Shown here: positions 1,672-39,245 of the stretch, one piece after another
Layout: the number at the start of each line of letters is the position of its first letter
Numbering within the stretch: the stretch's first letter is position 1
Assembly (NCBI RefSeq): GCF_030165005.1
Contig: NZ_JASNNW010000002.1
Span: 62,001-126,000, forward strand
Source of the DNA: Blastococcus capsensis
GTDB lineage: Bacteria; Actinomycetota; Actinomycetes; Mycobacteriales; Geodermatophilaceae
DNA length: 64,000 nucleotides
Direction of reading: 5' to 3'
Notes under the pieces: generated by a model
The model's database searches: none
What the model was told of the DNA's origin: nothing
What the model saw: only the letters and a program-made list of their open reading frames with translations
Program-made: the position numbers and the translations under genes

Positions 1672-2793
1672 ATGGCCAAGGATGCCATCGTCAACGAGAG
1701 CCTCGCGGCGAAGTTCGCCACCGAGAAGGACTCGCCGTACACCCGCTGGGTGGCCGACGAGGGTCTCGACATCATCGCCGCGCACTACGTGCCGGACCTG
1801 AAGACCGTCGAGCTCAAGGACTGGGCCCGCCGCGGCGGCAGGGGCGTCTTCATCAACCACGAGGCCAGCCGCACCTCGAACGACTGCTACGTGGCCGAGA
1901 TCCCGGCCGGGGGCGAGCTCGCCCCGCAGCGGCAGCTGTTCGAGGAGATGATCCTGGTGCTCTCGGGCCACGGCTCCACCAAGGTGTGGAACGACGCGGG
2001 CGCCGAGGTGACCTTCGAGTGGGGCCCGGGTGCGCTGTTCGCCATCCCGCTGAACGCCAACCACCAGCACTTCAACGGGTCGGGCACCGAGGTCGCGCGC
2101 TTCGTCTCCTCGACGAACGCCCCGGGCATCATCAACCTCTACGACGACATCGACTTCGTCTTCGGCACCGCCCACGACTTCCCGAAGCGTTTCAACGGTG
2201 AGCCCGACTACTTCGCGCCCAAGGGCGAGCAGAAGGGTCTGCTGCTCGACACCAACTTCGTGGCCGACTCGATCAACCTGCCGTTGATCGAGGCCAAGGA
2301 GCGCGGCGCCGGAGGCGGGCACATCCGCTTCAACATGGCCAAGGGCTCGATGAACAGCCACATCTCGCAGTTCCCGACGGCCACGTACAAGAAGGGCCAC
2401 CGGCACGGCCCCGGCGCTCACGTGATCATCCTCTCGGGCGAGGGCTACAGCCTGATGTGGCCCGAGGGCGAGGAGCCGCGGCGTTACGAGTGGCAGGCCG
2501 GCAGCATGATCGTCCCGCCGAACATGTGGTACCACCAGCACTTCAACACCGGCACCGAGCCGGCCCGCTACCTCGCCTTCAAGCACGAGGTGGTCTCGAT
2601 CCGCAACGCGCAGGGCGTGCCGAAGGCCTGGATCAGCCAGCGCATCGGTGGCGACCAGATCGACTACGCCGACGAGTCCTCCTACGTGCGCGAGACGTTC
2701 AAGGAGGCCCTGGCCAAGCACGGCCTCGAGCCGCAGATGGAGACCGCGTACGAGCAGGAGAAGGAGAACCTGCCGCCCAAGTCGGCTGCCTGA
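1672..2793 (+). CDS. Double-cupin protein (gentisate-dioxygenase-like fold)
   Basis: A 373-aa protein with two cupin barrels. The first contains HQHFN near residue 131; the second has HRHGPGAH near 244, the family glycine motif LSGEGYSLMWPEGE, and a third HQHFN near 288. His-rich cupin sites usually bind Fe(II), Mn or Ni and serve dioxygenases or isomerases; the reaction is not evident here. ATG 1672 is chosen because AGGGAGG (1661-1667) lies just upstream; longer in-frame starts would run through the promoter. It is first in a unit with the eutA-like gene. A decayed relative lies at about 29.4 kb on the other strand, and two further bicupins sit at 11.3 and 36.3 kb. Confidence 0.85.
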   Translation: MAKDAIVNESLAAKFATEKDSPYTRWVADEGLDIIAAHYVPDLKTVELKDWARRGGRGVFINHEASRTSNDCYVAEIPAGGELAPQRQLFEEMILVLSGHGSTKVWNDAGAEVTFEWGPGALFAIPLNANHQHFNGSGTEVARFVSSTNAPGIINLYDDIDFVFGTAHDFPKRFNGEPDYFAPKGEQKGLLLDTNFVADSINLPLIEAKERGAGGGHIRFNMAKGSMNSHISQFPTATYKKGHRHGPGAHVIILSGEGYSLMWPEGEEPRRYEWQAGSMIVPPNMWYHQHFNTGTEPARYLAFKHEVVSIRNAQGVPKAWISQRIGGDQIDYADESSYVRETFKEALAKHGLEPQMETAYEQEKENLPPKSAA

Positions 2794-2881: not shown

Positions 2882-4468
2882 GTGACGCACACCCACTCCG
2901 CCGAGCCGGTCTACGGCCGCGAGCACGCCCCGCCGCGGACGGTGCACTCGCCGCACACCCCTGACCACGACCACGACCACGACGACGCCGAGCTGCCGCT
3001 CGAGGACAACCCGATCTGGCAGCAGGACAACGTCACCCTGCACAGCGTCGGGATGGACATCGGCTCCTCGGGCACCCAGGTGGTCTTCTCCCGGCTGCAC
3101 CTCCGCCGCATCGGCGAGGACCTGACCAGTCGCTACATCGTCGTGCGGCGGGACACGGTCTACCGCTCGCCCGTGGCACTGACCCCCTACGCCAGCGCCG
3201 AGCACATCGACGCCGAGGCCCTCGGCACGATCATCGACCGGGCCTACGGCGAGGCCCGGATCGGTCCGGAGGACGTGGACACCGGTGTCGTGATCCTCAC
3301 CGGGGAGGCGCTGCGCCGTCGCAACGCCGAGGCCATCGCCGGGGTCCTCGCCGAGCGCGGCGGAGAGCTCGTGACCGCGACCGCGGGGCACCACATGGAG
3401 GCGATGCTGGCCGGCTACGGCTCCGGAGCGGCCCGGACGTCCTACGAGACCGGTCTGCGCATCCTCAACGTCGACATCGGCGGCGGCACGACGAAGCTCT
3501 CCGTCCTCGACCGTGGTCGCGTGGTGGCCACCGCGGCGGTCCACATCGGCGGTCGGCTGCAGGTCGTCGACCGGACCGGGACGATCGTGCGCCTCGATCC
3601 CGCCGGCCGGGCGCACGCCGCCCGGGCGGGTTTCACCTGGGACCTGGGCGACCCCACCCGCCCCGAGGAGGTCGACCGGGTCGCCGAGGGGATGGCCGAC
3701 GCGCTGGTCGCCGCGCTGGGCGACGCCCCGGCGCCGGACGTGGCCGCGCTGTACCTCACCGACCCCCTGCCCGACGTCGGCCCGATCGACGGGGTGGTGT
3801 TCTCCGGCGGGGTGGCCGAGTACGTCTACGGGCGGGAGGCCGAGTCGTTCGGCGACCTCGGCCGGCCGCTGGGCGAGGCGGTCCGGCGGCGGGTCGACGC
3901 CGGCATGCTGCCCTACCCGCTGCTGCCCGCCGGAGAATGCATCCGCGCGACCGCACTCGGTGCGTCGGAGTACAGCGTCCAGCTCAGCGGCAACACCGGC
4001 TGGATCTCCGACCCGGACGCCCTGCTGCCGCGCCGCAACCTCCAGGTCGTGCGCCCGGTCCACGAACTCGGCGAGACCGTGGACGCCGCGGAGGTGGCGG
4101 CTGCGGTCCGCCGGCACCTGGTCGCGCTCGACGCCGCGGACGCCGACCAGGACGTGGCGCTGGCGATGTCGTGGTCGGGCCTGCCGAGCTACCACCGGGT
4201 CGCCGCCTTCGCCCGCGGGGTGCGCGACGGCCTCGCGGAACGGATCGCCGCCGGCCGGCCGGTGTACGTCGTGCTCGACGGGGACGTCGCGATGACCCTG
4301 GGCCGGCTGCTCCAGCACGAGCTCGGGGTCACCTCGGACCTGCTGGTCGTCGACGGGCTCACCCTGCGGGATTTCGACTACATCGACATCGGCCGGCTGC
4401 GGCACCCGTCGCGGACCGTCCCCGTGACGATCAAGTCGCTGGTCTTCGGGGAGGAACCGGGCGCCTGA
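2882..4468 (+). CDS. eutA: EutA-like ammonia-lyase reactivating factor
   Basis: A 528-aa protein of the EutA family, the chaperone-like ATPase that removes damaged B12 from ethanolamine ammonia-lyase. Visible motifs are DIGSSGTQ near residue 59 and DIGGGTTKLS near 198, the two phosphate loops of the actin/Hsp70-type fold, and VFSGGVAEYVYG near 305. The N-terminus has a His/Asp-rich run (DHDHDHDD) before the fold, unusual for EutA and perhaps metal binding. GTG 2882 follows GGAG at 2871-2874. No EutB or EutC gene is in the window, so the client protein is unknown; the preceding cupin is the nearest candidate. It converges with the GntR gene 16 bp downstream. Confidence 0.85.
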   Translation: MTHTHSAEPVYGREHAPPRTVHSPHTPDHDHDHDDAELPLEDNPIWQQDNVTLHSVGMDIGSSGTQVVFSRLHLRRIGEDLTSRYIVVRRDTVYRSPVALTPYASAEHIDAEALGTIIDRAYGEARIGPEDVDTGVVILTGEALRRRNAEAIAGVLAERGGELVTATAGHHMEAMLAGYGSGAARTSYETGLRILNVDIGGGTTKLSVLDRGRVVATAAVHIGGRLQVVDRTGTIVRLDPAGRAHAARAGFTWDLGDPTRPEEVDRVAEGMADALVAALGDAPAPDVAALYLTDPLPDVGPIDGVVFSGGVAEYVYGREAESFGDLGRPLGEAVRRRVDAGMLPYPLLPAGECIRATALGASEYSVQLSGNTGWISDPDALLPRRNLQVVRPVHELGETVDAAEVAAAVRRHLVALDAADADQDVALAMSWSGLPSYHRVAAFARGVRDGLAERIAAGRPVYVVLDGDVAMTLGRLLQHELGVTSDLLVVDGLTLRDFDYIDIGRLRHPSRTVPVTIKSLVFGEEPGA

Positions 4469-6009: not shown

Positions 6010-6031
6010 GTCGTGACCCTAGCCACACATG

Positions 6032-6050
6032 TGGTCTAATGGACATACCA
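6032..6050. promoter_or_regulatory. FadR/GntR-type operator, site B
   Basis: TGGTCTAATGGACATACCA: core TGGACATACCA (6040-6050) has one mismatch to TGGTNNNACCA, and the TGGTCT half upstream is spaced as in site A. It lies between the phosphatase and ferredoxin starts. TCTAAT (6035-6040) could be a -10. Confidence 0.55.
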
Positions 6051-6097
6051 ATGAGCAGGCCCGGAAAACGGGTACGGGACGACGGAGGGGGCAGGGC

Positions 6098-6421
6098 GTG
6101 CCGAAGGTGGTCTACGTCGGGGACGCCGGTCAAGAGCACGCGGTCGATGCGACCGTCGGGGAGTCGGTGATGGCCGCGGCGGTGAAGAGCGGTGTCCCCG
6201 GCATCATCGCCGAGTGCGGCGGGAACGCTTCCTGCGCGACCTGCCACGTGTGGGTCCGCGACGAGTTCCTGTCCGCCGTCGGCGAGCCGAACGAGCTCGA
6301 AGAGGACCTGCTGGAGATGGCGGTGTCCGAACGCCGCGACGGTAGTCGGTTGAGCTGCCAGATCCCCGTGTCCCCGGAGTTGGACGGGCTCATCGTGGAC
6401 GTCCCGCCGCAGCAGCCGTGA
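6098..6421 (+). CDS. [2Fe-2S] ferredoxin, putidaredoxin type
   Basis: A 107-aa electron carrier. The cluster ligands are Cys40, Cys46 and Cys49 (CGGNASCATC, the C-x5-C-x2-C pattern) and Cys87, as in adrenodoxin/putidaredoxin-type ferredoxins. The start is GTG 6098 after GGAGGGG (6084-6090); an upstream in-frame ATG at 6029 would begin inside the operator. It precedes the Rieske oxygenase by 72 bp and probably delivers electrons to it. No dedicated reductase is next to it. Confidence 0.88.
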   Translation: MPKVVYVGDAGQEHAVDATVGESVMAAAVKSGVPGIIAECGGNASCATCHVWVRDEFLSAVGEPNELEEDLLEMAVSERRDGSRLSCQIPVSPELDGLIVDVPPQQP

Positions 6422-6446
6422 ATCGACAGTTGACGCCGTCCACGAT

Positions 6447-6457
6447 TGGTATGACAG
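6447..6457. promoter_or_regulatory. FadR/GntR-type operator, site C
   Basis: TGGTATGACAG between the ferredoxin stop and the Rieske gene, one mismatch from the core. TTGACG lies at 6430-6435. It suggests that the oxygenase has its own regulated promoter in addition to read-through. Confidence 0.5.
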
Positions 6458-6493
6458 TCAGCCCAACGCGCGGCTGAGGAGAGAGAGACACCG

Positions 6494-7780
6494 GTGCTTC
6501 GTCAGGACATCAACGAGCTGCTGACCCGGACGGGTCCCGGGACGCCGATGGGCGAGCTGTTCCGGCAGTACTGGATGCCCGCCTGCCTCGCGGAGGAGCT
6601 CCCGGAGGACGGCGCCCCGCCGATCCGGCTCAAGCTCCTCTCCGAGCGGCTGGTCGCCTTCCGGGACAGCTACGGCCGCTACGGCCTCATCGACGAGTTC
6701 TGCGCCCACCGTGGCGCGTCCATGTGGTTCGGCCGGAACGAGGAGGGCGGCCTGCGCTGCCCGTACCACGGCTGGAAGTACGACACCACGGGTCAGTGCA
6801 TCGAGGTGCCCTCCGAGGCCGACAACTCGAGCTTCGCCGAGAACGTGCGGCTGACCTCGTACCCGCTGGTCAAGATCGGTGACGTCCTGTGGACGTACAT
6901 GGGCGACCCGGCCAAGCAGCCGCCCCTGCCGGAGTTCGAGTTCGCGCTCACCCCGGCGGAGCACCACTACACCTCCAAGCGCTGGCAGCAGAGCAACTGG
7001 CTGCAGGCCTTCGAGGGCGGGATCGATTCCAGCCACGTGACCTTCCTGCACTCCGGTGGTCTCAAGAGCGATCCGCTGTTCAAGGGCGCCAAGGGCAACC
7101 AGTACAACCTCAACGACAAGAAGCCGTTCTTCGAGGTGGCCGACAGTGACGGCGGTCTGTTCGTCGGCGCCCGGCGCAACGCCGAGGAGGGGTCGTACTA
7201 CTGGCGGATCACGCCGTGGGTGATGCCGTCCTTCACGATGGTCCCCCCGCGCGGTGACCACCCGATCCACGGGCATTTCTGGATCCCGATCGACGACGAG
7301 AACTGCTGGGCGTACAGCTTCGACTACCACCCCATGCGGCCCCTGACCGAAGCCGAGCGGCAGGCCATGATCGACGGCCACGGGGTGCACAGCAAGAACA
7401 TCCCGGGCACGTACCGGCCCGAGGCGAACATGGACAACGACTACCTGATGAACCGCGAGAAGCAGCGGACCGGGGAGTGGTACTCCGGCGTCGAGGGCAT
7501 CGCGATCCAGGACTCATCCCTGCAGGAGAGCATGGGCCCGATCGTCGACCGCACGAAGGAGCGTCTGGTCCCGGCCGACAGCGGGATCATCAAGGCCCGG
7601 CAGAAGCTGTACCGGGCCGCGGTCGGGCTGCGCGACAAGGGCGTGACCCCGCCCGGGGTCGACCCGGCGCACCACCACGTCCGCTCGGCCGCCGTCGTCC
7701 TGCCGCAGAAGGAGGCGTTCCTCGACGCCGCCCGCGATGACGTCACGGTGCGCCCCGGCATGCCGATCTCCTCGGTCTGA
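6494..7780 (+). CDS. Rieske non-heme iron oxygenase, phthalate 4,5-dioxygenase-like
   Basis: A 428-aa terminal oxygenase. The Rieske centre ligands are Cys70/His72 and Cys89/His92 (CAHRGASMW and CPYHGW). The mononuclear iron site is DSSHVTFLH, with histidines near 182 and 187. Layout and length match the homotrimeric phthalate/carbazole/vanillate-type oxygenases, which need no beta subunit. Start is GTG 6494 after a GAGGAGAGAG run. It forms an operon with the ferredoxin before it and the 169-aa and PanB-like genes after it. The substrate is probably a carboxylated aromatic ring; dioxygenation versus demethylation cannot be decided. Confidence 0.88.
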   Translation: MLRQDINELLTRTGPGTPMGELFRQYWMPACLAEELPEDGAPPIRLKLLSERLVAFRDSYGRYGLIDEFCAHRGASMWFGRNEEGGLRCPYHGWKYDTTGQCIEVPSEADNSSFAENVRLTSYPLVKIGDVLWTYMGDPAKQPPLPEFEFALTPAEHHYTSKRWQQSNWLQAFEGGIDSSHVTFLHSGGLKSDPLFKGAKGNQYNLNDKKPFFEVADSDGGLFVGARRNAEEGSYYWRITPWVMPSFTMVPPRGDHPIHGHFWIPIDDENCWAYSFDYHPMRPLTEAERQAMIDGHGVHSKNIPGTYRPEANMDNDYLMNREKQRTGEWYSGVEGIAIQDSSLQESMGPIVDRTKERLVPADSGIIKARQKLYRAAVGLRDKGVTPPGVDPAHHHVRSAAVVLPQKEAFLDAARDDVTVRPGMPISSV

Positions 7781-7782
7781 TC

Positions 7783-8292
7783 ATGGCTGTCGAAACCCAG
7801 ACACTGAGCAGCTGCGCCCGGGCGGCCACGGCCGAGGAGGCGCGTTACCGGATCGACCGGCCGATCGCCCCTTCCCGGGCCGGGAGGGTCGTCGCCCTGG
7901 ACCCCGGCGCCGCCGAGGTGCTGCGCCGGACGGCGCAGCAGGAGTGGGCCAACGCCCGCTTCTACATCTGCGAGCCGGCCGGGTCCGGCGCCCAGGACGT
8001 CGTGCTGCGCGGCATCGACGGCGGCCCCGCAACGCTGGCCGACGAGCTGGCCAGTGCCTCGGTCGTCGTCATGGTCGCGACCAGCGACGCCGGCGCCGAC
8101 TGCGCCTACACGCTGGGCAAGGCGTGCTGGGAGCGCGGCATCCAGACGGCCGGCCTGGTCGTCGGCGACGGCACGCAGGCCGGAACCGCGGCCTCGGCGG
8201 CCGTGGCGGCGCTGCGGCCGCACGCCCGGGTGCTGCTGCCCTCGGCCGACGAGGCCGACGTCGTGGACCTGCTGAGCGCGCTCCGTGTCTGA
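7783..8292 (+). CDS. Protein of unknown function beside a PanB-like gene
   Basis: A 169-aa protein that I do not recognise. It is Ala/Val-rich, with alternating strands and helices like a Rossmann- or tubulin-type half domain: a strand VVVMVATSD followed by AGADCAYTLGKACWERGIQTAGLVVGD, weakly reminiscent of the FtsZ core but lacking GGGTGTG. No signal peptide or membrane segment is seen. It starts 2 bp after the oxygenase stop and overlaps the PanB-like gene by 8 bp, so translational coupling suggests a functional pair. Confidence 0.75.
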   Translation: MAVETQTLSSCARAATAEEARYRIDRPIAPSRAGRVVALDPGAAEVLRRTAQQEWANARFYICEPAGSGAQDVVLRGIDGGPATLADELASASVVVMVATSDAGADCAYTLGKACWERGIQTAGLVVGDGTQAGTAASAAVAALRPHARVLLPSADEADVVDLLSALRV

Positions 8293-9118
8293 GCGCGTGG
8301 GGCTGCGCGACCTGCAGCGGATGAAGGACGACGGGCGCAAGATCGTCGGCGTCGTCGCCTGGGACTACCAGATCGCACGGATCATCGACCGCGCCGGTGT
8401 CGACCTCGTCTCCGTGGGCGACACGGTGGGCGTCAACCTCTGGGGCCACTCGAACCCCTTCGAGGTGACGATGGAGGAGATGCTCGTCGTCGCCAAGGCC
8501 GTGCGCCGCGGCGTCTCGCGGGCGCTGGTCAGCGTCGACTTCCCGTTCGGCCCGCTGCAGGAGGGCGCCGACAGCGCCGTCCGCGCGGCGATCCGGTTCG
8601 TGAAGGAGGCCGGCGTGGACATGGTGAAGCTCGACGCCGCCTCGGACTACCTCGACGCGGTGGAGGCGGTGAACCGCGCCGGTATCCCGGTGTTCGCGCA
8701 GTTCGGCATCACGCCGCAGACGGCGCTGCGCTACGGCGTGGAGTACAAGTCCGTCCCCTCGGCGGCCGACGCGGTGCCGGCCGAGCTCCAGGACGAGATG
8801 GTCGCCGAGGCCAAGCGGCTCGAGGAGGCCGGAGCGGCCCTGCTGAACTTCACCAACTCCGGCCCGGTCGTCGGTGCCGCGGTCGCCGCGGCGGTCTCCA
8901 TCCCGGTCGTGGGCGGCTTCGGCGGCGGCCCGTGGCTGGACGGCCGCATGCGGATGGTCAACGCCGCGATCGGCTACGCGGCCACGGCTCTCGACGGGGC
9001 GTCCGACACGTACGTCAACGTCGCGCGGCTGACGCTGGACGCCATGACCACCTACGCCGACGACGTCCGCGCCGCCCGGCAGCTGCCCGGCGGCATCCCC
9101 GTCCCGCCCGCGCCCTGA
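8285..9118 (+). CDS. PanB-like ketopantoate hydroxymethyltransferase homolog
   Basis: A 277-aa TIM-barrel protein of the PanB/PEP-mutase superfamily. Family motifs are VVAWDYQIARIIDRAGVD, the metal-binding VGDTVGVNLWGH near residue 45, VTMEEM, SVDFPFG near 83 and VKLDAASDYLD. Canonical PanB transfers a hydroxymethyl group from methylene-THF to 2-oxoisovalerate. Here the gene sits in a catabolic operon without panC or panD, so it may catalyse a related aldol or C-C cleavage on a ring-derived acid (inference). The GTG start at 8285 overlaps the previous gene. Confidence 0.8.
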   Translation: MSERVGLRDLQRMKDDGRKIVGVVAWDYQIARIIDRAGVDLVSVGDTVGVNLWGHSNPFEVTMEEMLVVAKAVRRGVSRALVSVDFPFGPLQEGADSAVRAAIRFVKEAGVDMVKLDAASDYLDAVEAVNRAGIPVFAQFGITPQTALRYGVEYKSVPSAADAVPAELQDEMVAEAKRLEEAGAALLNFTNSGPVVGAAVAAAVSIPVVGGFGGGPWLDGRMRMVNAAIGYAATALDGASDTYVNVARLTLDAMTTYADDVRAARQLPGGIPVPPAP

Positions 9119-9144
9119 CCCGACCGACCGAGAGGACGCCCATC

Positions 9145-10008
9145 GTGCCCACCGCCGTCATCGACGGGATCGAGACCCGCTACGAGGTGAGCGGCTCCGG
9201 GCCGGCGCTGCTGATGTTCTCCCCCGGGGGGTTCGACTCCACGCTGGAGAGCTGGCGGACGGTGGGCGTCTACCGGCGGCTGTCCCTCCTGGACCACCTG
9301 AGCGGCAGCTACACCTGCATCACCTTCGACCGGCGGGAATCGGGCCACTCCGGCGGGCGGGTGCAGCGGATCCGCTGGGCCGACTACGTCGCCCAGGCCG
9401 TCGGGCTCCTGGACCACCTCGGCATCGCGTCTGCCCACCTCATGGGCGGCTGCGTCGGCTGCTCCACGGCCGCCGCCGTCGCCGTCGCGCACCCGGAGCG
9501 GGTCGCCAGCATGGTGCTGTACTCGCCGGCAGGTGGGGTCAAGTACCGCATGAAGCAGCACGCCCGGTTCGCCCAGCACCTGTCCTTCGTGGAGGAGCAC
9601 GGCCTCGGGGCGCTGGTCGAGCTGATCCGCGGCACCGACCTCGGCTTCAGCAAGGACCCGCGGGTGGGTCCCTGGAACAGCGTCGTCCGGACCGATCCGG
9701 GGTTCGCGGTCCGGTACGCCGAGCTCGACCCGGAGCGGTACGCCCTGCTGGTCAGCGGGACGGCGCGGCTGATGTTCGACCGCGACACCGTGCCCGGCGC
9801 CGAGCCGGAGGACCTGCTCGACCTGGCCACGCCGACGCTGATCGTGCCCGGCCAGGACGACTCGCACGCCCCCTCGGCCGCCCGCTACCTGCAGGAGTGC
9901 CTGCCGCACGCCGAGTACTGGGACGCGCCCGTCGCGGAGCAGACCGAGGACACCGCCCCGGCGCGGATCCTGCAGTTCCTCGACGCGGTGCGGTCGCCCG
10001 CCGGCTGA
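9145..10008 (+). CDS. Alpha/beta-hydrolase with Cys in the nucleophile position
   Basis: A 287-aa alpha/beta-hydrolase fold protein. The N-terminal strand and oxyanion region read LLMFSPGGFDS, and FDRRESGHSGG is typical of meta-cleavage-product and epoxide hydrolase relatives. The nucleophile elbow is MGGCVGCS, with Cys near residue 103 replacing the usual Ser. The acid is probably in VPGQDDSH. The position of the C-terminal catalytic His (VAEQTEDTAPARIL) has none. GTG 9145 follows AGAGGA. It is 26 bp after the PanB-like gene, in the same operon. It could be a dienelactone-hydrolase-like thiol enzyme or a non-hydrolytic C-C lyase. Confidence 0.82.
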   Translation: MPTAVIDGIETRYEVSGSGPALLMFSPGGFDSTLESWRTVGVYRRLSLLDHLSGSYTCITFDRRESGHSGGRVQRIRWADYVAQAVGLLDHLGIASAHLMGGCVGCSTAAAVAVAHPERVASMVLYSPAGGVKYRMKQHARFAQHLSFVEEHGLGALVELIRGTDLGFSKDPRVGPWNSVVRTDPGFAVRYAELDPERYALLVSGTARLMFDRDTVPGAEPEDLLDLATPTLIVPGQDDSHAPSAARYLQECLPHAEYWDAPVAEQTEDTAPARILQFLDAVRSPAG

Positions 10009-15147: not shown

Positions 15148-15714
15148 GTGACCGGTTTCCGCCGGCACCTGGGCGTGTTCGGCACGTTCCTCAAGGTCGG
15201 CGCCACGACCTTCGGCGGGATGTGGGCAGCCACCGACAAACTGGAGCGCGACCTCGTCGACCGCACCGGCTGGCTGCCCAAGGAGGAGCTGCGGGCCTCT
15301 TTCGTGCTCGCCACGCTGATCCCGGCGCCGCGATTCCTCGGCCTCGGCGGGCTGGTCGGGTTCCGCGTGGGCGGCTGGCTCGGGTCGTTCCTGGGGGCGC
15401 TCGGCCTGATCCTGCCGGCCTCCCTGCTGGTCCTGGCCGGGGCGGTGCTCGTCGGCCCCGAGCTGCTGGCCGGCCCCCTGGAGCCGATGACCCGGGCGGT
15501 CAGCATCGCGATCGTCGGCATCCTGTTCGGCAACGCCTACCGGCAGGTCCGCGGCGAGAAAGGCAGCCGGCGGCACCGGCAGATCGGTACCGCCCTGAGC
15601 GTGGCGATCTTCGCATCGGTCGTGCTCGGCGTGCCGTTGGTGGTCTCGGCGGTGGTCGGCTTCGTCGTCGGCGCGCTCCTGCTGCGCCCGGAGCCGAAGG
15701 AGGGCGACCGGTGA
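15148..15714 (+). CDS. chrA: Short ChrA chromate/anion transporter, N-terminal half
   Basis: A 188-aa membrane protein with about five to six hydrophobic segments. TTFGGMWAATDKLERDLV and LATLIPAPRFLGLGGLVGF correspond to the CHR-domain signatures (FGG and PGP-like). Short-chain ChrA proteins work as paired genes in opposite topology, and the second half follows with a GTGA overlap. The family exports chromate or imports and exports small oxyanions; in this setting another anion may be moved. It is 63 bp after the cyclodeaminase-like pair. Confidence 0.82.
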   Translation: MTGFRRHLGVFGTFLKVGATTFGGMWAATDKLERDLVDRTGWLPKEELRASFVLATLIPAPRFLGLGGLVGFRVGGWLGSFLGALGLILPASLLVLAGAVLVGPELLAGPLEPMTRAVSIAIVGILFGNAYRQVRGEKGSRRHRQIGTALSVAIFASVVLGVPLVVSAVVGFVVGALLLRPEPKEGDR

Positions 15715-27467: not shown

Positions 27468-28604
27468 ATGTCGTTCCGACTCCGCCCCCCGCTCGCCGCG
27501 CTGACCGCGGTCGGCCTGCTGACCGCCTGCGGCGGCTCTCCCACCTCCACCGGCGGCAGCGGAGGTGGGGAGGGGCGTGAGGACTCCGACGCCGCGGCCG
27601 CGGCCGCGGAGGTGTACGACACGTTCAACGGCATGTCCGGCCAGGAGCGCACCGACGAACTCGTGGCCTGCGCGGAGGAGGAGGGCGAGCTCAACGTCTA
27701 CACCTCGAACTCCGACATGGACGCCCTCGTCGAGGGCTTCACCGATCTGTACGACATCGACGTGAGCGTCTACCGCGCCAGCGGCGAGACCGTCCTCCAG
27801 CGCCTGCTGCAGGAGGACGGCGCCGGCTACTACGGCGCCGACGTGTTCGAGGTCGACTCCATCGAGCTCGATGCGGCGGAACAGGAGGGGCTGCTCTACC
27901 CGTACGAGAGCGAGCTGCGCGATTCGGTGCGCGAGGAGGGCAAGCCGTCGGAGAACTGGACGGGTACCCGGTTCAACGCCTTCGTCGTCGGCTGGAACAC
28001 CGACAACGTCAAGCCGGGCGAGGAGCCCACCACGCTCGAGGAGCTCGCCGAGCCCGAGTGGAAGGGCCGGGTCTCCATGGAGCTCGGCGACGTGGACTGG
28101 TTCACCGCCATGCACGACTACTACGTCGAGGAGCAGGGGATGAGCGAGGAGGAGTACACCGACCTCATGACCCGGTTGGCCTCGAACTCGCAGGTGGTCA
28201 AGGGCCACACCGTCCAGGGCGAGCTGCTCGCGGCCGGCCAGTTCGACGTCGGCGTCTCGATGTACAGCCACACGGTGGACAAGGCCGCCGCCGACGGCGC
28301 CCCGGTCGCGTGGCAGCCGGCCGACGGTTCGCCGGTCGAGCCGATCATCCTGCGTCCGAACGGCATCGGCCTGCTGAAGACCGCCACCAACCCGTGCGCC
28401 GCGACGCTGTTCGTGGACTACGAGCTGAGCGAGGGGCAGGACCTCGTCCGCGAGGCGAACCGGATCAGCTCCATCGCCGGCGCCGAAGACCCGCTGGAGG
28501 GGTTCGAGGTCTACCCGGTGCCCCTGGACAAGCTGCTCGAGGAGCCGGCGAGCTGGGACAAGGCGTACGAGGACGTCGTCGCGAACGGCCAGGCCATCGA
28601 GTGA
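27468..28604 (+). CDS. ABC importer substrate-binding lipoprotein 3
   Basis: A 378-aa receptor, lipoprotein Cys21 (LLTAC), closely similar to receptor 1 through the whole mature part (for example FNAFVVGWNTDN and RVSMELGDVDWF). ATG 27468 is preceded by CGGAGAACCAG. It is the last intact gene of the importer cluster; having three receptors for one permease suggests that related ligands are collected by a single channel. Confidence 0.87.
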   Translation: MSFRLRPPLAALTAVGLLTACGGSPTSTGGSGGGEGREDSDAAAAAAEVYDTFNGMSGQERTDELVACAEEEGELNVYTSNSDMDALVEGFTDLYDIDVSVYRASGETVLQRLLQEDGAGYYGADVFEVDSIELDAAEQEGLLYPYESELRDSVREEGKPSENWTGTRFNAFVVGWNTDNVKPGEEPTTLEELAEPEWKGRVSMELGDVDWFTAMHDYYVEEQGMSEEEYTDLMTRLASNSQVVKGHTVQGELLAAGQFDVGVSMYSHTVDKAAADGAPVAWQPADGSPVEPIILRPNGIGLLKTATNPCAATLFVDYELSEGQDLVREANRISSIAGAEDPLEGFEVYPVPLDKLLEEPASWDKAYEDVVANGQAIE

Positions 28605-33615: not shown

Positions 33616-35381
33616 CGCGGCGCCGTCCGGGCGTGCACGACGGCGACCGCACCGCCGAGGGCGGCGTCCCGGCCGCGGGCCAGCGCGTCGGCCAGGTCCG
33701 CGGGGTCCTCGACCGGGCCCTCGGCCCAGCAGCCGTAGGAGCGGGCGAGGCCGGCGATGTCGACGGCGGGGTCGCTGATGCGCATGCCGATCCAACTGTT
33801 CTGCTCGGGACGGCCACGGTGCCGGGCCACCTCGGCCTGGTGCGGCTCGTCGTTGTAGAAGCTCGAGTTGTCGTTGACCACCAGGAGCGCGGGGATGCGG
33901 TAGTGCACGGCGGTCCACAGCGCGGAGGAGGCCATCAGCAGGTCTCCGTCGCCGACGATGCCCACGCCCAGCTGGCCGCGGTCCCGTGCGGCGAGCGCAC
34001 CGCCGACCAGCGCGCCGGGCCCGTATCCGACGCCGCCGCCACCGGAGTGGCCGAGGTAACTGCCGGCGCCCGGCAGCTCCCACACGCCGTCGGGCCAGGT
34101 ACGGGTGTTGCGCAGGCACAGCAGGTGGTCGATGTCGCGCACCGCGGCCCACGTCTCGGCCACCAGCCGGGCGGGGGAGATCGGCCGGTCGTCCCACCGG
34201 CGGCGCAGCTCGTCGGCCTGCTTCTCCCGCAACGCGCGCCCGCGCGCGACCACAGCACTGCGACGGTTGCCGACGGCCGCGTCGTCGAGCCGGTCGCGCA
34301 GGGCCGCCACCAGCTGCGCCACGCCGGTGAGCGGGTCGGCGAGCAGCTGGACGTCGCGTGCCAGCGGGGTGCCGAACGCGTTGGTCCACGAGGGCTGGGC
34401 GAGGTCGCCGTGCGAGAGGTCGACGACCAGCGGCCCCGCCCGGCGCTCGCCGGCGTCGGCACCGCGCGGTCCGCGGTGCCGGGTGCTCAGCAGGGCGTCC
34501 AGGTCGACGACGTCGATGGCGAGCACCACGTCGGCGTCGGCCAGCAGCTGCGCGTCGCCGGTGCAGTTCTGCGGGTGCCGGGTCGGCAGGACGACGACGT
34601 TGCGGTCGTCCCGGTAGGCGGCGCCGAGCAGCTCCACCAGCTCGCCGACGGCGGCGGTGGCCCGCGGGTCCAGCCCGACCCGGCCGGCGACGACCACCGG
34701 GTAGCGCGCGTCGGCCAGCACCTCGACGGCCCGCTCCACCGACGCCGGGTGGGCGGCCATGGGTGGCGCGGGTGCGTGCCGCGCGAGGTCGGGAAGCGGG
34801 ACCGGCCGGTCGAGCGCGGCTTCCTGGACCCCGGCGTCCAGGCTGACGTAGGCGGGGCCCTGGGGAGCCGACATCGCCCGCTGCCGCGCCCGCGCGACAT
34901 CGCTGACGAAGGCGGCCGGCGTCATCGGCTCGGCGTCCCAGACGGTGTAGTCCCGCACCAGCTGCGCCTGCGTGGTCGCCGAGTGGATCCAGTCGATCGG
35001 CCGCCGCTGCGCCGGATCGGCCGGGCCGCTGCCGCCGAGCAGCAGCAGCGGCGTCCGGTCGCAGAAGGCGTCGTAGACGGCCATCGAGGCGTGCTGCAGG
35101 CCGACCAGGTCGTGCACCGCGGCCACGCCGAGCCGGCCGGTGGCCTTGGCCCAGCTGTGCGCGAGGGAGACCGCCACCTCCTCGTGCAGGCACAGCAGCA
35201 GCTGCGGGTCGCGGTTGCCGCCGTGGTTGACCAGCGAGTCGTGCAGCCCCCGGAACGACGACCCCGGGTTGAGCGGCACGTACGGGACGTCCAGGGCGGC
35301 CAGGAGGTCCACGACCAGGTCGCTGCCCCAGGCTGCGGCGGGACGCTCGGCGGGCAGCCCGGCCGGCTGCTCCACCGTCAC
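33612..35381 (-). CDS. ThDP-dependent decarboxylase/lyase (copy 2)
   Basis: A 589-aa paralog of copy 1: LNPGSSFRGLHDSLVN is shared by both, the glutamate is in LHEEVAVSLAHSWAKATG, and the ThDP motif is VGDGDLLM...VVNDNSSFYND. Between them the two proteins keep the fold but differ in the substrate helices. Having two paralogs in one operon suggests either a two-subunit enzyme or two sequential decarboxylations. GTG 35381 overlaps the end of the AAA+ gene by four bases, so translation is probably coupled. Confidence 0.87.
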   Translation of the reverse strand: MTVEQPAGLPAERPAAAWGSDLVVDLLAALDVPYVPLNPGSSFRGLHDSLVNHGGNRDPQLLLCLHEEVAVSLAHSWAKATGRLGVAAVHDLVGLQHASMAVYDAFCDRTPLLLLGGSGPADPAQRRPIDWIHSATTQAQLVRDYTVWDAEPMTPAAFVSDVARARQRAMSAPQGPAYVSLDAGVQEAALDRPVPLPDLARHAPAPPMAAHPASVERAVEVLADARYPVVVAGRVGLDPRATAAVGELVELLGAAYRDDRNVVVLPTRHPQNCTGDAQLLADADVVLAIDVVDLDALLSTRHRGPRGADAGERRAGPLVVDLSHGDLAQPSWTNAFGTPLARDVQLLADPLTGVAQLVAALRDRLDDAAVGNRRSAVVARGRALREKQADELRRRWDDRPISPARLVAETWAAVRDIDHLLCLRNTRTWPDGVWELPGAGSYLGHSGGGGVGYGPGALVGGALAARDRGQLGVGIVGDGDLLMASSALWTAVHYRIPALLVVNDNSSFYNDEPHQAEVARHRGRPEQNSWIGMRISDPAVDIAGLARSYGCWAEGPVEDPADLADALARGRDAALGGAVAVVHARTAPR

Positions 35382-36289
35382 TGCGGGCGAGCCGGGAGCT
35401 CGGCGTCGACCGCTGCCCGCAGGTCCGCGGCGGTCAACAGTCCGGGGTCGAGCGCGACGTCGGGGCGCGAACCCATGGCCGAGAGCACCAGCTTGCGCAC
35501 CCGCCGTCCGTCGAGCCCGGTGCAGCGGTCGGCGAGCTCGCTGATCAGCGCCTCGTCGGAGGCCACCCCGAGCAGGCCGGGGAAGACCGTGGCGGCCTCG
35601 GCCAGGGCCTCCCGCAGGATCCGCTCGACCGTCGGGCGGTCCGGCAGGCCGAGGCGCAGGACGAGGTCGGCCCGGTCCAGGAACGCTTCGTCGACGGCGG
35701 CCGCGAAGTTCGTCGTCCCGAGGACGAGCACCTGCGGGCAGGACCTGCGGAGCAGATCCAGCCCGGACAGCAGCGCGTCGGTCGCCCGGTGCACGTCCAC
35801 CGGGTTGGTCTCGAAGCTCGCGGTGCTGCGCCGGACGGCGAGCGCCTCGATCTCGTCGACCAGCACGATGGTGTGCGGACGGCGGGCCGCCAGTTCCGGC
35901 AGCGTGTCGGAGAACAGCCGCCCGACCGCCCGCGGGCCCTCCCCGAGCATGTCGCTGGGGAAGGCGTGCGGATCGATCTCCACGAACGTCGTCGCCCCTC
36001 GCGGCGCCAGGGCCAGCGCGACCTTCTGCGCGAGGCCCTGGCACAGCGTCGTCTTACCGGTGCCGGGCGGGCCGGAGAGCAGGATGAGCCCGTGCGGGGC
36101 GCCGTTGAGCTGCCCCAGCGCCCGTCCGTGCCGCAGGATCAGCAGCCCGGTGCCGAGCAGCCGCTCCTTCAACCCCGGTGGCGTGATGATGCTGTCCCAG
36201 GGCCCCTCGTGGTGGTCGGCCGGCAGCGTGTGCACCCCCACGATGCCCGGGGGGTAGTTCGCTGCCGGCCGGACCGAGCTCAGCGCCAT
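35378..36289 (-). CDS. Pch2/TRIP13-like AAA+ ATPase
   Basis: A 303-aa single-domain AAA+ protein. Walker A is GPPGTGKT (73-80), followed by TLCQGLAQKVAL; Walker B is IVLVDEIEAL (Asp145, Glu146); sensor 1 is GTTNF (Asn194); the arginine segment is FLDRADL (Arg206); sensor 2 is GRRVRKL. The whole run from LPADHHEGPWDSI through the AAA core follows eukaryotic TRIP13/Pch2 closely (WDSL, GPPGTGKTSLCKALAQK, FVDRADI). TRIP13 remodels HORMA proteins; bacterial relatives are known with CBASS HORMA genes. Here no HORMA or cyclase gene is near, and it is locked in a catabolic operon between a cupin (4 bp) and a ThDP enzyme. Confidence 0.85.
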   Translation of the reverse strand: MALSSVRPAANYPPGIVGVHTLPADHHEGPWDSIITPPGLKERLLGTGLLILRHGRALGQLNGAPHGLILLSGPPGTGKTTLCQGLAQKVALALAPRGATTFVEIDPHAFPSDMLGEGPRAVGRLFSDTLPELAARRPHTIVLVDEIEALAVRRSTASFETNPVDVHRATDALLSGLDLLRRSCPQVLVLGTTNFAAAVDEAFLDRADLVLRLGLPDRPTVERILREALAEAATVFPGLLGVASDEALISELADRCTGLDGRRVRKLVLSAMGSRPDVALDPGLLTAADLRAAVDAELPARPQ

Positions 36290-36293
36290 CCCC

Positions 36294-37376
36294 TCACGGC
36301 CAGGTCGGGCGCTCGAGCGGCGGCCACTCGATCGTGGTCACGTCACCGGCCTGGGCGTCGCGGATGTGGTTCGGCGGCTCCTCGAAGAGCACCAGCGGGT
36401 CGCAGAGGACGCGCATGGTCTCCAGCAGGCTGTCGAACATGTGGATGCGGACGACCTTCGCGGTGTTGTCCGGATCGTCGTTGAAGTGCTGGTGCCACAG
36501 GAAGTGGTCGACCACGATCAGGTCGCCCTTCTTCCACTCGTGGTTCTCCCCGCCCTCGGGCTCGGTGCCCAGGTAGGAGTGGCCCCGGCCCTCCAACACG
36601 TACAGCCAGGCCTCGCCCGGGTGCCGGTGCATCGACTGGCGCCGGCCGGGCCCGATCTCGAACATCGCCATGGTGATGCCGGAGGCCTGGTAGCCGATGG
36701 CCTTGTCCAGCAGGAACGTCGTGCGGGTACCGCGGGGGCTGTTGAGCAGCTCCAGGGAGTCCCAGTCGGTGTGCAGCCGGCCGGTGCGCCGCTCGTCCTG
36801 CTGACGGGCCACGCGGCGCAGCCGGCGGGCGTAGGGGTCGTCGCCCTGGGGGCCGTCGGACACCGGTGGCCGGGGCGGGAGGGTGGCGAACTCGGCGTGA
36901 CCGGCGTCTTCCAGGACGGACATGCCCATCGTCTCGAGCATCGGCTCGCTGGAGAACGTCAGGTAGCGGAGCGGTGCCGCGGCCCCACCGTCGACGCCGG
37001 TGCGGTGCCAGGCCCAGGAGGGGAGGTGGACCGAGTCACCGGGGGCGACGTCGATGCGCTCGCCGTCGATCTCGAACCAGCCGCGCCCGCCGACGACGAG
37101 GACCATCGCGTCCCACGAGTGCCGATGGACCGTGGTGGTGACGCCCGGGTCGATCTCGTGCACCAGCGCGTCCATCGTCCGCGTCTGCCGGTCGCCGTCG
37201 GCACCGACGTAGACGCCGACGCGCGAGCCGCGGGCGGTCTCCACGAGCTCCGCGTCCTCGACCGCGACGACGGTGCGCCAGTTGGCCCGCCAGTCCTCGA
37301 CGAACTGCGCGCGGCGCTTCTTCTGCACGTAGTAGTGGCTGACAGCTGTCGTCGTCTTGGTGCTCATCGCGGGCAT
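36294..37376 (-). CDS. Double-cupin protein, first gene of the AAA+/ThDP operon
   Basis: A 360-aa bicupin. Domain 1 has HRHSWDAMVLVVGGRGWFEI near residue 90 and PSWAWHRTG; domain 2 has HRHPGEAWLYVLEGRGHSY near 255 and HFLWHQHFND. Gentisate 1,2-dioxygenase and related Fe(II) enzymes share this plan. Starts at 37376 (after GAGG) or 37367 (MSTKTTTA) are both plausible. It is transcribed from an operator-containing region (site J) and leads the six-gene operon. Confidence 0.83.
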   Translation of the reverse strand: MPAMSTKTTTAVSHYYVQKKRRAQFVEDWRANWRTVVAVEDAELVETARGSRVGVYVGADGDRQTRTMDALVHEIDPGVTTTVHRHSWDAMVLVVGGRGWFEIDGERIDVAPGDSVHLPSWAWHRTGVDGGAAAPLRYLTFSSEPMLETMGMSVLEDAGHAEFATLPPRPPVSDGPQGDDPYARRLRRVARQQDERRTGRLHTDWDSLELLNSPRGTRTTFLLDKAIGYQASGITMAMFEIGPGRRQSMHRHPGEAWLYVLEGRGHSYLGTEPEGGENHEWKKGDLIVVDHFLWHQHFNDDPDNTAKVVRIHMFDSLLETMRVLCDPLVLFEEPPNHIRDAQAGDVTTIEWPPLERPTWP

Positions 37377-37389
37377 CGACCTCTGGAGT

Positions 37390-37408
37390 AACGGACAGAC
37401 CATTAGTC
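37390..37408. promoter_or_regulatory. FadR/GntR-type operator, site J
   Basis: On the minus strand GGACTAATGGTCTGTCCG: core TGGTCTGTCCG (37392-37402) has two mismatches but keeps the extended AATGGTCT layout. It lies about 20 bp upstream of the bicupin start. Confidence 0.45.
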
Positions 37409-37629
37409 CGCTGATCCTGTCAAAGCCGCGTCCGCGTGTGCAAGACCACAGCGTGATCAAACCCACCGCCCCTCGTGCCGCAATGCGCACGAGGTCACAT
37501 CCGGAGGCGCATTTCCGCAGGCCAGCGAGGGGTTCAATGGAGGGGTGGCCCCATCCGGGTCGACGAAGACGGGAGGCCGATCGCACCACCGTGCGGTCGA
37601 GCCCACTCGAGATCGCGAGGAGATCTGCC

Positions 37630-37812
37630 ATGAGCACCGGAATGCCCGCCCCCTGGTTCGTCAGCGAGGGCGTCAGCGCGGAGATGATCGGCAGCGGCGA
37701 GCCGCGCCTGCGCCGGTACCGCGGCGGGAACGGCTCGTGGTTCACCAGCGCCGCCGCGTTCCTGGGCCGCCTGCGCCCGGTGACGACCCGGGTGCCCGCG
37801 CTCGGCCGCTGA
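37630..37812 (+). CDS. Small hypothetical protein
   Basis: A 60-aa basic protein beginning MSTGMPAPWFVSEGVSAEMI. It has a good ribosome site (GAGGAG about 9 bases before ATG 37630) and high third-position GC. No domain, signal peptide or membrane segment is recognised. It is divergent from the bicupin operon and convergent with the RpiB-like gene, 21 bp away. Confidence 0.5.
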   Translation: MSTGMPAPWFVSEGVSAEMIGSGEPRLRRYRGGNGSWFTSAAAFLGRLRPVTTRVPALGR

Positions 37813-37833
37813 TCCACCGCGGGGGCGAGCCGC

Positions 37834-38300: not shown

Positions 38301-39245
38301 TCAGCCCACGACGTCGCGGGTGTCGGCGGTGAAGACGTCCTCGAGCTTCGGCGCACGGTCGAGGATCTTCTGGTCGACGGCGCTGCGCAGCAGCTCCTCG
38401 AGCACCTGCCGGTTCGGCTCGATGCCGTAGGGCAACGGGTCGTCCCAGCCGGTCAGCTCCATCACCGTGCGGTGCATGCGGTCGGTCGCCGTCTCCTCCG
38501 GCAGCGTGCCGGCCCGCAACTGGTCGACGTAGCGCCGCTTGGACTCGGCGAAGGCGTCGAACACCCGCCGCCCCAGGTCGGGGTGCTGCTCGAGCAGCTC
38601 GTCCCGGATGACCACCAGGTGGTTGATCGGCCACAGCCCGCGCTGCTCCAGCGCTGCATGGGCAGCGTCGTCCGGCAGCAGCGGCCGCGCGTCGGGGGAG
38701 TCGATCTCCACCCCGACCACCGCGGCCAGGTCACCGCTGGCGAGCATCTCGTCCAGGGTCCGGCCCGCGTCGACGGGGACGACGTTGGCCGGCGGTCGGT
38801 AGGCGGCGACGTGCTCGTCACCGGAGAGCACCCAGGTGATCGAGTCGAGGTCGACGCCGTGCTCGTCGGCGAGGACCGACCGCGCCCACACGCCGGTGGT
38901 CACCGTGTAGCCGCGGTTGACGCCGACCTTCTTCCCCTCCAGGTCCTTGGGCGAGGTGATGCCGTGCCGGGTGTCCACCGTGATCGCGTTGTGGTGGAAG
39001 CCGCGGACGAGGAACGCCGGGACGGCGGTGAAGGCCACGCCGTGCGCCTTGGCGGTGAGGTAGGTCGTCAGCGCCATCTCGCAGACGTCGAACTCCAGGG
39101 TCCGCACCATCCGGCGGAAGCCCTGCACCAGGACCGGGACCTCCTCGAAGTCGAAGGTCGCGCCCTCCGGCGTGACGGTCCCGTCGAGAAGGGCGCGGTT
39201 GTTCCCCTGGGGGCGCGTGACGGTGCGCAGGTGCAGGTCGGTCAT
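38301..39245 (-). CDS. 4,5-dihydroxyphthalate decarboxylase-like protein (Pht5 family)
   Basis: A 314-aa protein with the periplasmic-binding-protein fold but no signal peptide, as in Pht5. Blocks include LEFDVCEMALTTYLTAKAHG near residue 50, HHNAITVDTRHGITSPKDL and VGVNRGYTVTTGVWARSVL. Pht5 removes a carboxylate from 4,5-dihydroxyphthalate to give protocatechuate; the phthalate 4,5-dioxygenase-like Rieske enzyme at 6.5 kb fits the preceding step. A cytosolic binding protein cannot be excluded. Operator H lies 24 bp upstream. The first about 60 codons are repeated at 61.5 kb. Confidence 0.8.
   Translation of the reverse strand: MTDLHLRTVTRPQGNNRALLDGTVTPEGATFDFEEVPVLVQGFRRMVRTLEFDVCEMALTTYLTAKAHGVAFTAVPAFLVRGFHHNAITVDTRHGITSPKDLEGKKVGVNRGYTVTTGVWARSVLADEHGVDLDSITWVLSGDEHVAAYRPPANVVPVDAGRTLDEMLASGDLAAVVGVEIDSPDARPLLPDDAAHAALEQRGLWPINHLVVIRDELLEQHPDLGRRVFDAFAESKRRYVDQLRAGTLPEETATDRMHRTVMELTGWDDPLPYGIEPNRQVLEELLRSAVDQKILDRAPKLEDVFTADTRDVVG

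Follow-up and report, generated by a model that had tools for sequence, protein, structure and literature searches.

What does a protein of the EutA family do in a genome that lacks ethanolamine ammonia-lyase? The question is raised by a 64,000-nucleotide stretch of Blastococcus capsensis DNA, analysed as a whole and called the window here (Table 1). Canonical EutA reactivates its enzyme through ATP-driven cofactor exchange. In the window, a sequence-only reading had recorded an EutA-like protein without that enzyme, a bicupin as its nearest partner and an unusual His/Asp-rich extension at its N terminus.

Table 1. Features of the window discussed in the text, in window coordinates.
Feature	Position	Strand	Evidence and remarks
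Bicupin A, partner of the EutA-like protein	1672..2793	+	Cupin_2 + Cupin_1; start inferred from conserved MAKDA; longest ORF from 1537
EutA-like ASKHA-fold protein, type I, 528 aa, probably an ATPase	2882..4468	+	Pfam PF06277, 377 bits; AlphaFold2 model; ASKHA fold matches
N-terminal extension, about residues 1-51, His/Asp-rich, DHDHDHDD	2882..3034	+	Residues 1-30 pLDDT <50, low confidence, probably disordered
Phosphate-1 motif VGMDIGSSGTQ, residues 56-66	3047..3079	+	V56, G57, D59, G61 kept in all three groups (alignment, 92 EutA rows)
Phosphate-2 motif DIGGGTT, residues 198-204	3473..3493	+	D198, G200, G201, G202 kept in all three groups
Adenosine motif SGGV, residues 308-311	3803..3814	+	S308, G309, G310, V311 kept in all three groups
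Recurrent catabolic neighbours: 2Fe-2S ferredoxin, LigXa-type Rieske oxygenase, orf169, PanB-like protein, alpha/beta hydrolase	6029..10008	+	
Pch2/TRIP13-like AAA ATPase	35378..36289	-	Closest PDB sequence Pch2/TRIP13 4xgu, 5e-29
Bicupin C, partner of the AAA ATPase	36294..37817	-	Cupin_2 in two stretches; start uncertain, ORF probably over-extended

The gene starts with a GTG codon, and a GGAG ends 7 bases upstream of it. The Pfam EutA profile covers residues 52-522 of the product (profile positions 2-474 of 475; the score compares with a cut-off of 27), while the NCBIfam EutA equivalog cut-offs were reached in none of the four matched cases: the best score of the EutA-like protein is 302.6 against 598, with the others further below. 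The three nucleotide motifs, phosphate-1, phosphate-2 and adenosine, and the fold place the protein in the ASKHA superfamily. Its AlphaFold2 model (pLDDT 88.1, pTM 0.85) matches the exopolyphosphatase-like 3cer with Z 18.1 and an rmsd of 3.8 over 260 residues; the structure models of this study drew on 44 of the 66 EutA and 37 of the 52 bicupin sequences available. The activators 1hux and 4ehu also appear among the fold matches (Z about 14), Pfam BcrAD_BadFG is matched weakly and below its cut-off (22.9 against 31.5), and a 2Fe-2S ferredoxin is encoded in the cluster, all of which would suit a BadF/HgdC-like electron activator that uses ATP to return the iron of the bicupin to its reduced state. 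However, no cysteine is invariant or nearly so across 44 aligned EutA-like members, and the [4Fe-4S] site of such activators is thus missing, which makes this reading very improbable.

Could the protein simply be an ordinary EutA that serves an ethanolamine ammonia-lyase encoded elsewhere, as its Pfam match would allow? The assembly comprises 4,392,919 bases in 51 contigs and is 99.95% complete; it holds one copy of EutA, and neither EutB nor EutC has a match anywhere in it, with an E. coli control positive for both. Diol dehydratase (PF02286) gave no signal in the genome, nor in the control genomes. The lack of the lyase noted from the window therefore extends to the whole genome, and an eutBC operon elsewhere, the finding that the sequence-only reading had named as fatal to its claim, is excluded for this assembly by the EutB and EutC searches. 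Canonical EutA looks different: in all nine genomes found to encode it (five of Actinomycetota, four of Pseudomonadota), EutB lies within 160 bp and bicupin is absent. The five from Actinomycetota score 501-532 bits, with EutB 53-114 bp off as measured between match edges; eight of the nine reach at least 501 bits, and the ninth (G531) scores 229 bits with EutB adjacent.

A scan of genome contigs retrieved 64 related loci, 42-82% identical to the EutA-like protein, from Actinomycetota, Pseudomonadota, Acidobacteriota, Chloroflexota and Myxococcota; since the scan patterns include the His-rich stretch, this sample is biased towards it. Searches of 63 of the 64 source genomes (all except that of L037) returned no EutA match above 420 bits, with E <=1e-30 as the limit in part of them. 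EutB is absent from 49 of the 63 and present in 14 (11 of 49 in one search, 3 of 14 in another), and in these 14 more than 50 kb separate it from every listed EutA match that shares its contig, many of these assemblies being fragmented; the closest case is 51 kb away, in G334. A tree of 92 EutA rows (quick method, SH-aLRT) separates six canonical rows from 86 others, the EutA-like protein among them, by a 100* branch, with the root assumed between the canonical and the other rows and with type II serving as a label that need not be one clade. Twelve of 104 ORFs were omitted from it (eight without the start pattern, three short, one low-scoring fragment), and most of the split-cupin group described below is among these. 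Together, the searches for EutB and EutC in the genome and for EutB in its relatives lead us to reject a canonical EutA with a remote eutBC, and, with the protein placed outside the EutB-linked clade, an ordinary EutA function is hardly credible unless the assembly misses eutBC. As a side observation, one source genome carries a second EutA copy with an in-frame stop (L075; G328:C94:83801-85192), possibly a decaying paralogue.

If not the lyase, which protein accompanies EutA? Bicupin A ends 88 bp upstream of the EutA-like start, and this adjacency, which the sequence-only reading had noticed in the window, proved general to the subfamily: a bicupin is present at 31 of 35 type I loci (those of at least 19 kb) and at 23 of 24 type II loci (hand-picked from those retrieved), against none of eight canonical loci. 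None of 17 other families at the same loci exceeds 27/35 for type I (ABC ATPase) or 9/24 for type II (Rieske). Nine loci, including some truncated at a contig end, have no detected bicupin (L018, L019, L026, L033, L046, L055, L056, L058, L066); they fall in eight genomes, each of which encodes a bicupin elsewhere, with a best match at least 70% identical.

The association also holds between genomes. Among 296 Actinomycetota genomes (an even draw, our own included), ten encode a full-length EutA, five canonical and five noncanonical; a further 35 exceed the Pfam cut-off through partial matches that are short and score at most 37.6 bits, which, like the matches under the cut-off, we took as distant ASKHA relatives rather than EutA. 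The noncanonical full-length EutA and the bicupin (E <=1e-20) occur in the identical five genomes (G000, G009, G075, G135, G183), of which G075 has two of each, and EutB is absent from all five. With our own genome removed, both occur in four of 295, a coincidence with a probability of about 3e-9 if they were independent, for classes that were named after the fact. Across 299 Pseudomonadota genomes, four encode EutA besides the chosen centre (E <=1e-30), all of them canonical, without a bicupin and with EutB no more than 160 bp away. In a plasmid collection of 72,556 records, the bicupin is found in four, exactly those four of the 25 EutA-bearing records whose EutA is more than 40% identical; of the 21 with lower identity, the two inspected, both haloarchaeal, show the order eutB-eutC-eutA. 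In some genomes bicupin matches far outnumber EutA matches (17 against 3 in G655, 15 against 5 in G649, fragments counted), and the relation is therefore not one-to-one.

The pairing is specific down to the subtype. Searching the loci yielded 151 cupin ORFs, and 76 of 103 scored EutA ORFs, related genomes being counted separately and the rows thus not independent, have a cupin ORF no more than 1 kb away, at a median gap of 43.5 bp and on the same strand in 73 cases. Within that distance, type I EutA rows have a type I bicupin in 41 cases, type II in none, a bicupin C-like protein in one, a single-domain cupin in four and no cupin in 16; type II rows have type II in 24, type I in none and no cupin in three. 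The single bicupin C-like neighbour, at L013, is an AAA-linked bicupin, and a type I bicupin is also close. Rows of neither type have type I in one case, type II in three, single-domain cupins in two and none in two, and all six canonical rows are without a cupin. Several of the 16 type I and three type II cupin-less rows have one 2-9 kb away. At five loci (L050, L051, L054, L057, L076), two tandem cupin genes of about 200-290 residues precede EutA and look like a split bicupin. That the EutA-like subfamily is tied to bicupins, each EutA subtype with its own bicupin subtype, is therefore well supported.

What kind of enzyme might bicupin A be? In its C-terminal cupin, H254 and H299 are invariant and H256 nearly so (37 aligned rows, numbered from 1639; H256 is missing in the type II row L032), which predicts a three-His metal site. 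Such a site fits iron better than nickel, and nickel cupins have H3E sites; by its residues, the predicted site resembles those of Fe(II) dioxygenases, unlike the H3E of nickel cupins. The nearest folds to the bicupin A model are salicylate and gentisate 1,2-dioxygenases, at Z 20.3-21.1 and a best rmsd of 5.2 over 273 residues, some 1.5 to 3 Z units above oxalate decarboxylase (19.6) and seed globulins, and the best sequence match of the bicupin profile is the gentisate dioxygenase 3bu7. Among curated NCBIfam models, the sole match is MabB, at 27.1 bits against a cut-off of 650. Bicupin A combines the bicupin fold and the His metal site expected of a gentisate 1,2-dioxygenase; it differs from the gentisate and salicylate enzymes in having its metal histidines in the C-terminal cupin. 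Because the dioxygenase folds are barely ahead of oxalate decarboxylase, a ring-cleaving dioxygenase is a guess, one that gains some plausibility from the neighbouring genes for a Rieske oxygenase and a hydrolase.

A further clue comes from the termini of the EutA-like proteins. At least four histidines in the 50 residues before the phosphate-1 motif are found in 53 of 57 type I rows, three of 26 type II rows and one of six canonical rows, the last (L093) being an over-extended ORF. The His/Asp-rich extension that the sequence-only reading had found unusual is thus a conserved feature of type I, kept among orthologues as in His-rich metallochaperones. C-terminal tails with 7-31 histidines occur in 18 of 57 type I rows, none of them from Actinomycetota (the end motif is missing in two of the 57, scored as tail-less, and in five of six canonical rows); the long ones, with up to 31 histidines, belong to Pseudomonadota proteins (L031, L037, L048, L026, L027 and others). 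The nickel genes NicO and/or NikR are present at eight of 95 noncanonical loci and none of 15 control loci, as counted with HMMs trained on the very hits they then counted and with the window's own locus and a few duplicates among the 95. The eight are L024, L031, L037, L040, L041, L048, L073 and L105 (L031 and L073 being one genome), with the genes at 15464-17066 in L105, 11693-13367 in L048 and 13605-14957 in L041; Pfam confirmed them in seven of the eight, all those scanned. All are loci of Pseudomonadota and none is from Actinomycetota, so the window itself is without such a gene. A plasmid from Phyllobacterium carries one EutA-cupin pair with a NicO nickel/cobalt transporter and NikR encoded after it, and a second pair, itself preceded by a LysR gene, with a TerC/YjbE-type metal transporter after it. 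A search with the NikR box consensus found one good site, with one mismatch, between NicO and NikR in L105 and not before the bicupin operon.

The steady cupin partner and the His-rich tails together suggest that the EutA-like protein loads or repairs the metal of the cupin. Since canonical EutA exchanges a cofactor at the expense of ATP, restoration of a metal cofactor in a cupin is an economical inference for the EutA-like subfamily, and the maturation of nickel enzymes often involves NTPases, or partner proteins, that bear His-rich tails (HypB, UreE/UreG). The explanation we favour, with a probability of roughly one half, is that an ATP-driven EutA-like protein loads, exchanges or restores the catalytic metal in the neighbouring bicupin, with the His/Asp-rich termini holding or delivering the metal. 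In this scheme, the protein would bind and hydrolyse ATP, the energy would be used to load, exchange or restore the bicupin metal, and the termini may act as a metal store or delivery arm; the bicupin served would be the predicted three-His, gentisate/salicylate-dioxygenase-like enzyme of an aromatic-acid catabolic cluster. We infer the physical interaction, the ATPase activity, the metal transfer or reactivation, the reaction of the bicupin and the identity of the metal, be it nickel or iron. The scarcity of His-rich N termini in type II counts against a role in metal handling. A protein without any metal role, which regulates, scaffolds or folds the bicupin as an Hsp70-like holdase or sensor, would be in keeping with the frequent adjacency to bicupins and with the fold matches to ASKHA proteins of the FtsA, MreB and PilM types, but it leaves the conserved His/Asp-rich termini and the nickel genes at some loci unaccounted for, and we consider it unlikely.

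The main rival to metal maintenance is that the EutA-like protein is itself a metabolic enzyme of the pathway, such as an ASKHA-type kinase that acts on the substrate or product of the bicupin. ASKHA folds include kinases, the model matches N-acetylmannosamine kinase with Z 13.8, and the EutA-bicupin pair is embedded in catabolic clusters that also encode transporters and dehydrogenases. The neighbours in the window recur in a subset of the type I loci (Rieske 23/35, PanB 22/35), and within type I the mirror-tree correlation of EutA distances is r = 0.94 for PanB, 0.93 for the hydrolase and 0.91 for the bicupin. In paired comparisons the bicupin gives 0.92 against 0.81 for Rieske and 0.95 against 0.93 for ADH. 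PanB and the hydrolase thus follow EutA a little more closely than the bicupin does, so that co-phylogeny gives the bicupin no special place and fits the whole cluster, as expected of a pathway enzyme. However, the pair is retained in widely differing gene surroundings and also as paralogous pairs within one genome, the sequence kinship is to EutA, a known reactivase, and His-rich tails of the metal-handling type would be unexpected on a kinase. We therefore regard a pathway kinase as doubtful.

How does the metal-maintenance reading compare with known systems? With canonical EutA (PF06277), the EutA-like proteins share homology over the full length and the nucleotide motifs; they differ in lacking EutBC, in their bicupin partner, in the phosphate-1 sequence SSGTQ (canonical TTTTQ), in K205 (canonical N), in their His-rich termini and in forming a separate clade. 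The diol and glycerol dehydratase reactivases DdrA/GdrA, in which an ASKHA subunit of a two-subunit factor reactivates a B12 enzyme in an ATP-dependent manner, offer a functional template. HypB, UreE/UreG and CooC/CooJ are His-rich metallochaperones of nickel enzymes whose NTPases belong to the SIMIBI class of P-loop proteins. They resemble the present case in the combination of an NTPase and His-rich segments near a metalloenzyme gene, with NicO/NikR nearby at some loci, whereas the EutA-like protein is an ASKHA protein and its putative target a cupin. Inactivated non-haem iron ring-cleaving dioxygenases are restored by XylT-type ferredoxins through reduction; this, too, is the restoration of a dioxygenase, but not by an ATPase partner. 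To our knowledge, no cupin enzyme has an ATP-consuming maintenance factor. By their sequences, the EutA-like proteins are best read as a distinct bicupin-linked EutA subfamily, the novelty being the switch of partner, which was not found in the open-access literature searched, mostly at abstract level. In PMC4334477, EutA is a name from ectoine utilisation. The annotation 'ethanolamine ammonia-lyase reactivating factor EutA' is probably wrong where EutBC is absent and a bicupin lies alongside. If the explanation is true, the supply and retention of the correct metal in bicupins becomes a testable question, and the failure of bicupins expressed alone, should it occur, would be explained.

The window holds a second pair of this kind. 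The Pch2/TRIP13-like AAA ATPase adjoins or, with an over-extended ORF, overlaps a same-strand bicupin in all 17 of its occurrences in the loci searched, the window included; 14 of these bicupins are bicupin C-like and three are cut by the locus end. With 31 of 35 type I loci for the EutA pair, the picture of two ATPases each beside a bicupin, drawn earlier from the window, describes a conserved arrangement; the two may, as the sequence-only reading supposed, be protein remodellers of one regulon. More tentatively, the EutA-like proteins may be the first metal insertases of the ASKHA class, ATP-driven, His-tailed and perhaps for nickel, with the EutA fold having moved from, or alongside, the exchange of a B12 cofactor to that of a metal ion, and with the AAA protein beside bicupin C as a further ATPase, unrelated to the first, that serves this class of enzymes.

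Elsewhere in the window, a candidate iron importer was considered and is not claimed: its binding protein (27468-28601) is nearest the iron-binding FutA/SfuA proteins, but the Tyr-Tyr ligand pair of FutA falls in an alignment gap, and its permease comes closest to those of the 2-aminoethylphosphonate and molybdate types, with every score under its cut-off. The gene at 38301-39245 encodes an NMT1-superfamily protein that, by its start, resembles a 4,5-dihydroxyphthalate-decarboxylase-like protein, and homologues recur in the clusters. Genes for ChrA-type chromate transporters lie near EutA-cupin clusters in distant genomes, at 15148-15714 in the window and at 2376-3429 in L106.
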